From Gaiellales bacterium (GTDB lineage Bacteria > Actinomycetota > Thermoleophilia > Gaiellales > JAICJC01), in contig DASUHM010000034.1 in the NCBI GenBank assembly GCA_036273515.1, forward strand, positions 1-63,491: 63,491 bases of DNA, read 5' to 3'. Position 1 is the first letter of the stretch, and each line of letters begins with the position of its first letter. The notes beneath the pieces are model-generated. The model had not been told where the DNA came from. It saw only the letters and a program-made list of their open reading frames with translations, and ran no database searches. Positions 10,035 to 10,359 of this stretch are shown one piece after another. A program made the translations under genes and the position numbers.

Positions 10035-10196
10035 CTAGCGGGAGAGCGCGAGCTCCTCGCGGACGGCCTGGAAGAGGCTCTTGTCGATCTTGCCGTGGTA
10101 GATGGGGACGGACTGCTCGTGGCAGAGGCGGATGACATCTTCCCGCTTCATGCCGTACTCCTTGGATAGCTCGTCCGGCGTCAGGTGGTTCGCCAT
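10035..10196 (-). CDS. small helix-turn-helix-like protein (53 aa)
   Basis: A 53-residue protein beginning MANHLTPDELSKEYG. The pattern (LTPDELSKEYGMKREDVIRLC, then VPIYHGKIDKSLF) resembles an excisionase/MerR-like winged HTH fragment: a helix-turn-helix followed by a short wing. It may bind DNA or act as a small partner protein; no function is assignable. A good ribosome-binding site (AAGGGGG) lies 6 nt before the ATG. The reading frame extends upstream through a terminator-like hairpin, so the longer version is unlikely. It is the downstream gene of an attenuator-like leader (features at 10226-10359). Confidence 0.6.
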   Translation of the reverse strand: MANHLTPDELSKEYGMKREDVIRLCHEQSVPIYHGKIDKSLFQAVREELALSR

Positions 10197-10225
10197 GCCT
10201 GCCCCCTTGATGGTCTTCGGGAATT

Positions 10226-10256
10226 GAAAAACCCACCGGGAAGGATCCTCGGTGGG
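10226..10256 (-). terminator. intrinsic-terminator hairpin in the leader of the 53-aa gene
   Basis: On the minus strand CCCACCG (10256-10250) pairs with CGGTGGG (10238-10232) around an 11-nt loop. A run of five T and then CAATTC follow directly. This is a standard Rho-independent terminator shape. It lies only about 30 nt before the ATG of the 53-residue gene and downstream of a sigma70-like promoter and an 8-codon ORF, so it looks like an attenuator rather than the end of the Nif3 transcript. A GAATTG just after the small ORF is complementary to the CAATTC after the T-run. Confidence 0.65.
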
Positions 10257-10297
10257 CTCAGCGATGCCGCTCCTCATGTGCGCGCGCCTCGGGCAAT

Positions 10298-10324
10298 TCA
10301 GGCGCGCTCCTCGCAGACATCCAT
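10298..10324 (-). CDS. putative leaderless leader peptide MDVCEERA
   Basis: Eight codons (MDVCEERA) followed by TGA. The ATG is 6 nt after the -10 box TACAGT, so the transcript probably begins at or next to the A of ATG. It has one cysteine and ends 42 nt before the terminator hairpin. Position and size fit a regulatory leader peptide, like the leaderless cysteine-containing leader peptides known in mycobacteria. No direct evidence of translation is visible in the sequence. Confidence 0.4.
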   Translation of the reverse strand: MDVCEERA

Positions 10325-10330
10325 GTCCAC

Positions 10331-10359
10331 ACTGTAGCGACGTGCCCGGACGCCGTCAA
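10331..10359 (-). promoter_or_regulatory. sigma70-like promoter upstream of the leader peptide
   Basis: TTGACG (10359-10354) and TACAGT (10336-10331) on the minus strand are separated by exactly 17 nt. This is the best-matched -35/-10 pair noticed in the window. It lies in the gap downstream of the Nif3 gene and would transcribe the leader peptide, the terminator hairpin and the 53-residue gene. Confidence 0.65.

Follow-up and report, generated by a model that had tools for sequence, protein, structure and literature searches.

A conserved leader with a predicted leaderless reading frame, a hairpin around its stop codon, and an intrinsic terminator precedes a small helix-turn-helix gene in Gaiellales

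A 63,491-nt stretch of contig DASUHM010000034.1 (positions 1 to 63,491) of a Gaiellales bacterium (assembly GCA_036273515.1; Actinomycetota, class Thermoleophilia), called the window here, carries on its minus strand a promoter, an immediate 8-codon upstream open reading frame (uORF), an intrinsic terminator, and a gene for a 53-residue helix-turn-helix (HTH) protein, in that order by direct reading. We propose, with a probability of roughly 0.6, that these elements form a cis-acting leader in which premature termination, coupled to translation of a leaderless uORF of 8 to 10 codons, controls a clade-specific winged HTH (wHTH) regulator. As judged from sequence, this is an ancient, switch-like leader in one class of soil actinobacteria: comparison of relatives shows a promoter, a start codon where the RNA is predicted to begin, a stop in the same frame within a hairpin (P1), the terminator, and the gene. 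The switching step itself is inferred.

All elements listed in a first-pass annotation of this locus are present, namely, TTGACG, 17 nt, TACAGT, 6 nt to the uORF ATG (10324-10322), MDVCEERA-TGA, the hairpin, TTTTT, AAGGGGG, and the ATG of the 53-residue reading frame (Table 1). The hairpin follows the peptide stop by 40 nt rather than the 42 nt given in that annotation; hairpin P1, around the uORF stop codon, had been overlooked. The promoter is the sole sigma-70-like match in 2 kb, for which shuffled sequences predict 0.0 ± 0.1 matches. The folding energy of the single window leader is unremarkable (z = −1.97, slightly better than shuffles), and the case that the leader exceeds chance therefore rests on conservation in relatives. 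For this we compared 149 non-redundant homologous upstream regions from Thermoleophilia, nearly all from metagenome-assembled genomes. Architecture was counted in 101 Gaiellales loci, in which the −10 element and the hairpin were picked without regard to reading frame; counts for the uORF, spacer, and terminator are mostly over 94 loci, covariation is over 67 aligned leaders, and codon drift is over 36 independent pairs.

TABLE 1 Features of the leader and the HTH gene, all on the minus strand; coordinates are positions in the window
Feature	Position	Strand	Details
Promoter	10331..10359	-	-35 TTGACG 10359-10354, 17 nt, -10 TACAGT 10336-10331
uORF, 8 codons, MDVCEERA	10298..10324	-	Stop TGA 10300-10298; start and stop conserved in relatives
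Hairpin P1 around the uORF stop	10282..10307	-	Arms GCGCGCCT 10307-10300 and AGGCGCGC 10289-10282; in minimum-free-energy and centroid folds
Single-stranded spacer	10258..10281	-	Purine-rich motif ACATGAGGAG 10279-10270; family consensus ACAAnYGAGG
Intrinsic terminator	10227..10257	-	Stem 10257-10250 with 10238-10231; U run 10231-10227
Shine-Dalgarno AAGGGGG of the HTH gene	10202..10208	-	Sequence
Mini-wHTH protein, 53 residues, MANHLTPDELSKEYGMKREDVIRLC...	10035..10196	-	Conserved homologues; AlphaFold2 model

The Gaiellales relatives carry a −10 element at the equivalent place, and an ATG or GTG follows it by 4 to 11 nt in 100 of 101 loci, the position of the 5' end being predicted from sequence. 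The stop codon falls within the P1 loop in 91 of the 101. When the P1-loop stop was compared with the first ATG in an unbiased frame test, 78 loci were in frame 0, none were in the second frame, and 4 were in the third; these four are parsing artifacts (a misassigned −10 element in L100, a misparsed hairpin in L116, and a second, in-frame ATG in L126 and L192), and the loci that start with GTG are likewise in frame. uORF lengths differ from one another only in multiples of a codon (8 codons, n = 15; 9 codons, n = 63; 10 codons, n = 16), an in-frame 60-nt insertion in L017 gives a uORF of 29 codons, and the stop is TGA in 93 of 94 uORFs. Start, frame, and stop are conserved in this putatively translated uORF.

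Between these fixed ends the sequence drifts. In the 36 independent pairs, codons 2 to 5 show 88 differences, spread as 26/30/32 over positions 1/2/3 with no third-position excess, and no coding-type selection was seen on them; the start codon shows two differences, at the first position only (ATG/GTG), and the stop codon shows two (TGA/TAG). What is conserved is therefore an open reading frame with fixed ends and not a peptide. No residue is shared by all 94 peptides, and no regulatory (stall) codons common to the family were found; arginine is frequent, but its codons fall in the P1 arm. The first-pass annotation had named conservation of peptide and hairpin in relatives as a check; the hairpin and the placement of start and stop are kept, and the peptide sequence is not. 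Its cysteine reading fails on the same comparison, and we rejected cysteine sensing by the leader peptide: cysteine occurs in 9 of 94 uORFs, at most once in each, and sister genera carry MDSRSERA, MDARSEKA, and MDTRSEQA. Because neither the peptide nor its codons are conserved, a general signal is expected, and what the leader appears to register is translation itself, not one particular amino acid.

Hairpin P1 is formed by the last uORF codons, paired with bases past the uORF, and holds the stop codon at its apex. Across relatives, 6 of its 7 modeled pairs changed on both sides, and pairing between native arms exceeds that between swapped ones (t = 7.4). A ribosome positioned on a 5'-terminal AUG is expected to have its leading edge at about +15/+16. 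The first P1 pair falls at nt 16 to 20 in 74 of 78 well-paired loci; nearly all of the well-paired loci have it 17 to 20 nt from the start-codon A, for 8-, 9-, and 10-codon frames alike. Covariation is also seen in the 8-bp terminator stem, where 6 of 8 pairs changed on both sides, and its native arms are favored in the corresponding swap test (t = 11.1). For P1 and the terminator together, 12 of 15 pairs changed on both sides in the 67 aligned leaders, with 80 double-sided cells observed versus 27.5 ± 4.1 in shuffled data, and slid controls collapse.

In the window, the GC-rich terminator hairpin (10257-10231) has an 8-bp stem with a further 3 bp inside it (−19.4 kcal/mol) and is followed by TTTTT; an automatic terminator scan skipped it, its loop being longer than 8 nt. 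Terminators have a mean energy of −20.3 kcal/mol and 4 to 8 U within 8 nt in all 94 loci, and in relatives the segments that follow match the anti-Shine-Dalgarno sequence far better than their own shuffles do (t = 24.4). A search for a second promoter between terminator and gene found TANNNT in just 3 of 94 loci and no −10 element in the other 91. With one upstream promoter, a terminator, and no second promoter, the gene should need read-through, and expression of the HTH gene appears to depend on it.

The distance from leader to gene, usually 20 to 40 nt, is about 115 nt in L103 and is also longer in L031, L105, L107, L125, and L186; some of these long-gap loci contain additional hairpins. 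Loci of the Miltoncostaeales type (L061 at 2878-2970, L062, L063, L095, L146, and L158) keep P1, the second hairpin, and a uORF encoding MDAHGASGR or near variants, and their U run is degraded to TCGTCGTCGTT. L096 and L141 keep an MDAHGASGR-like uORF, P1, and the second hairpin, with GAGAC after the hairpin and no U run at all; there, the second hairpin may therefore be something other than a simple terminator.

Several observations weigh against a leader that couples termination to translation. The sequences share ancestry, and the counts thus overstate independence; 16 of the 94 loci have either a weak P1 or none that could be found. A swap test of 36 segment pairs found species-specific pairing for P1 and the terminator alone, and no alternative antiterminator pairing among them covaries, including pairings of the uORF or P1 with downstream segments. 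In partition-function folding, a ribosome in mid-frame or at the stop removes P1 and a ribosome at the start leaves it, and the terminator forms with a probability of 0.90 to 0.95 in all three cases. With no covarying alternative pairing and a terminator predicted to form at each ribosome position modeled, a classical two-state RNA switch is unsupported.

Two specific pairings were rejected. The first-pass annotation had suggested that GAATTG competes by pairing with CAATTC; both motifs are present, but the pairing is limited to the window species and, in weakened form, its nearest relative, is lost in L004 to L006 and in L034, and shows no covariation. The 5' arms of P1 and the terminator, often GGCGGG/GCCCGCC-like, gave no species-specific gain over swaps despite a mean of −10.6 kcal/mol, and when ribosome sites were masked, upstream pairing of the terminator 5' arm had a probability of ≤0.03.

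A terminator that forms in silico at every ribosome position tried, behind a peptide that is not conserved, is also what a constitutive partial terminator would give. Such a leader would set a low basal level of the regulator, with the uORF and P1 stabilizing the short RNA or tuning read-through and nothing being sensed. We consider this rather unlikely, as the long-conserved uORF frame, the stop in the loop, and the spacing of P1 exceed the needs of a fixed weak terminator.

The spacer between the two hairpins is enriched for parts of its consensus motif relative to shuffled spacers (GAGG in 40 of 94 versus 12.8, ACAA in 26 versus 6.9), although shared ancestry inflates this enrichment. In most loci that carry it, ACAAnYGAGG sits 6 to 13 nt past P1; it is Shine-Dalgarno-like and is a candidate site for a 30S subunit, a protein, or a polymerase pause. 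This conserved single-stranded motif, the lack of a covarying antiterminator pairing, and the nucleic-acid-binding type of fold of the regulated gene's product would all suit an attenuator set by a protein, perhaps the mini-HTH protein itself in feedback, that binds P1, ACAAnYGAGG, or both, with uORF translation secondary. That account leaves the conserved start, stop, and frame unexplained and has to accommodate Solirubrobacterales, which keep the protein without the leader; we judge it unlikely.

The leader architecture is found in nearly all Gaiellales that have the gene. A covariance model run against 299 Thermoleophilia genomes (E up to 0.001) recovered 79 copies, which lie in 78 of them, and coordinate comparison placed each of the 79 directly upstream of the HTH gene; one doubtful match (G044) sits at the end of a contig that truncates the gene. 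One genome carries both the gene and the leader twice, and genera without the gene are also without the leader. Reuse of the leader elsewhere was rejected, with no match away from the gene; weaker matches (E of 0.02 to 0.09) are mostly isolated or reverse-strand terminator hairpins. Since the leader is missing where the gene is missing and is never found away from it, it acts at least in cis. This bears on another explanation, in which termination yields a trans-acting small RNA, or a dual-function RNA, of about 98 nt and the HTH gene is fed by read-through. Two stable hairpins, a promoter and terminator of its own, and a single copy would be in keeping with a small RNA, yet one that is never separated from the HTH gene (79 of 79) makes that explanation very unlikely. 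No Rfam 15 family matched the leader at E up to 1, and no paper on Thermoleophilia or Gaiella leaders was found in the literature collection searched.

The attenuator-like leader with a predicted leaderless short reading frame that the first-pass annotation had described is supported as a unit conserved together with hairpin and gene. The pattern that it had named as telling against the idea, an unconserved peptide combined with a terminator elsewhere, is not what relatives display: frame, hairpin, and gene remain together.

The upstream neighbor of the leader varies. In the window it is a Nif3 gene on the same strand, and 38 of the 149 loci were found to have Nif3 upstream, so the hairpin might be taken for a mere terminator of Nif3, with a fortuitous ATG and TGA. 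We rejected this on comparative data, which already contradict it, and regard its probability as negligible: Nif3 is separated from the hairpin by the promoter, the leader is kept behind other neighbors, including tRNA genes, and four Solirubrobacterales-type loci (L170, L176, L183, and L195) have an adjacent Nif3 and no leader.

In the translation-coupled leader that we favor, ribosomes (probably 70S, by leaderless initiation) would begin at the 5'-terminal AUG and translate the uORF, melting P1; the first pair of P1 appears to be placed where the leading edge of the initiating ribosome should end. Were initiation or the first elongation steps to fail, P1 would form. The state of P1 would then alter read-through, most plausibly through hairpin-stabilized pausing of RNA polymerase or through a factor at the spacer motif, for which a 30S subunit or a protein is the candidate; no conserved antiterminator would be involved. 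The signal would be general translation capacity, at initiation or early elongation, and not one amino acid. Leaderless translation is reported to be strongly enhanced by formylmethionyl-tRNA (fMet-tRNA) and activated by the guanosine phosphates (p)ppGpp (PMC9031893), and these effects are a possible input to the leader. A narrower version seems quite unlikely. In it, the leader would sense leaderless initiation alone (70S, fMet-tRNA, and IF2 dependent): only the ribosome start at the 5'-terminal AUG and the clearance of P1 would count, with no stall codons and no antiterminator, and the feedback would be on a minimal protein, MerR-type or IF2-N-like, acting on ribosomes or regulating the translation state.

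Among known systems, the fthC uORF candidate motif of Streptococcus, for which its authors suggest initiation sensing through fMet-tRNA (PMC11109978), is by analogy the closest in logic: it too has a uORF without a diagnostic amino acid run, a stop inside a hairpin, and a terminator downstream. It differs in clade, gene, and sequence and uses a Shine-Dalgarno sequence and three hairpins rather than a leaderless start. The whiB7/wblC attenuators of Actinomycetota respond to ribosome-targeting drugs and amino acid starvation, and a terminator/antiterminator switch is described for them (reviewed in PMC11550727, citing Lee et al. 2022). Like them, the Gaiellales leader has a uORF, an intrinsic terminator, and a small, predicted DNA-binding regulator downstream; unlike them, it has no covarying alternative pairing, precedes another gene family, and places the stop of a predicted leaderless uORF inside a covarying hairpin. 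Our best reading by analogy is that it would work much as these attenuators do, minus the regulatory codons and a conserved antiterminator. The ilvB-II uORF of Corynebacterium (PMC10272879, PMC11109978) shares the arrangement of a uORF with P1 and a terminator, P2, a conserved start, and an in-frame stop, but it is rich in Ile/Leu/Val codons and has its antiterminator within P1, neither of which was seen in the Gaiellales leader. Poly-cysteine leaderless short reading frames of mycobacteria are named in the title of Canestrari et al. 2020 (as cited in PMC13236596 and PMC9094748). Compared with that title, the Gaiellales leader likewise has a predicted leaderless short frame before a regulated gene in Actinomycetota, and it differs in having no consecutive cysteine codons (9 of 94, never a run), in having a terminator, and in preceding a gene other than a cysteine operon. 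As neither an antiterminator nor regulatory codons were seen, we keep it apart from the trp/ilv-type attenuators, though it is similar to them in outline.

Attenuators with a uORF are usually recognized by runs of codons for one amino acid and by rival hairpins. A leader that has neither, yet is conserved across an order, would therefore be missed by the usual searches. It offers a compact test case, in a barely studied lineage, for how the bare start and stop of leaderless translation could decide whether transcription terminates, and it draws attention to an uncharacterized, putative single-copy regulator present in most Thermoleophilia.

The HTH gene is a one-per-genome gene found in most Thermoleophilia (279 of 399 genomes); a search of about 180 other Actinomycetota genomes drawn across the phylum found no copy, and its product is a putative regulator. 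Protein conservation begins at MANHL, which identifies ATG 10196 as the start codon. An N-terminal extension to ATG 10277, through the terminator, was rejected: conservation starts at MANHL, and the preceding segment varies from 19 to 92 nt. The AlphaFold2 model is a confident small fold (predicted local distance difference test score, 87) whose nearest solved folds, all with modest scores, are BldC, RacA, phage and transposon Xis, and the IF2 N-domain. BldC (6amk, 6ama) is the best Foldseek match (probability 0.97, E = 0.2, TM 0.62; VIA Z 6.2; 16% identity), and BldC of Streptomyces is likewise a small, wHTH-only protein. The cutoff of the BldC family (NF033787, 77 bits) is unmet: no match above it occurs in 26 genomes (the window's own and relatives), and the HTH gene is not among the weaker matches. 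The window's protein has no NCBIfam match up to E = 1 and reaches 13.8 of the 27 bits required for HTH_17 (PF12728); the best relative, at 24.3 of 27 bits, is also below the gathering threshold. Matches to IF2_N (PF04760) are below the Pfam gathering threshold (best relative, E = 7.6e-5), and a PDB sequence search with the protein gave nothing convincing. From its model, the protein is a minimal MerR-type or IF2-N-like domain, predicted to bind DNA or the ribosome. In 21 aligned diverse homologues of this protein (P0001), Cys25 is invariant, as are N3, H4, T6, P7, P31, G35, D38, and L41; the cysteine is unusual for a DNA-binding helix.

Other members of the class precede the gene differently. 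The Solirubrobacterales-type loci L153, L156, L157, L163, L168, L172, and L182 show no leader, and a strong, TTGACA-N17-TAAATAT-like promoter stands immediately ahead of the gene; the leader was therefore either lost or gained between orders. The gene of a further family in the class (L152, L160, L162, L166, L179, and L181) has a terminator leader without P1 and with a longer reading frame, which starts near the −10 element, encodes, for example, MIPRLNQG... or a shared DAxGIP, and in several loci stays open through the terminator.
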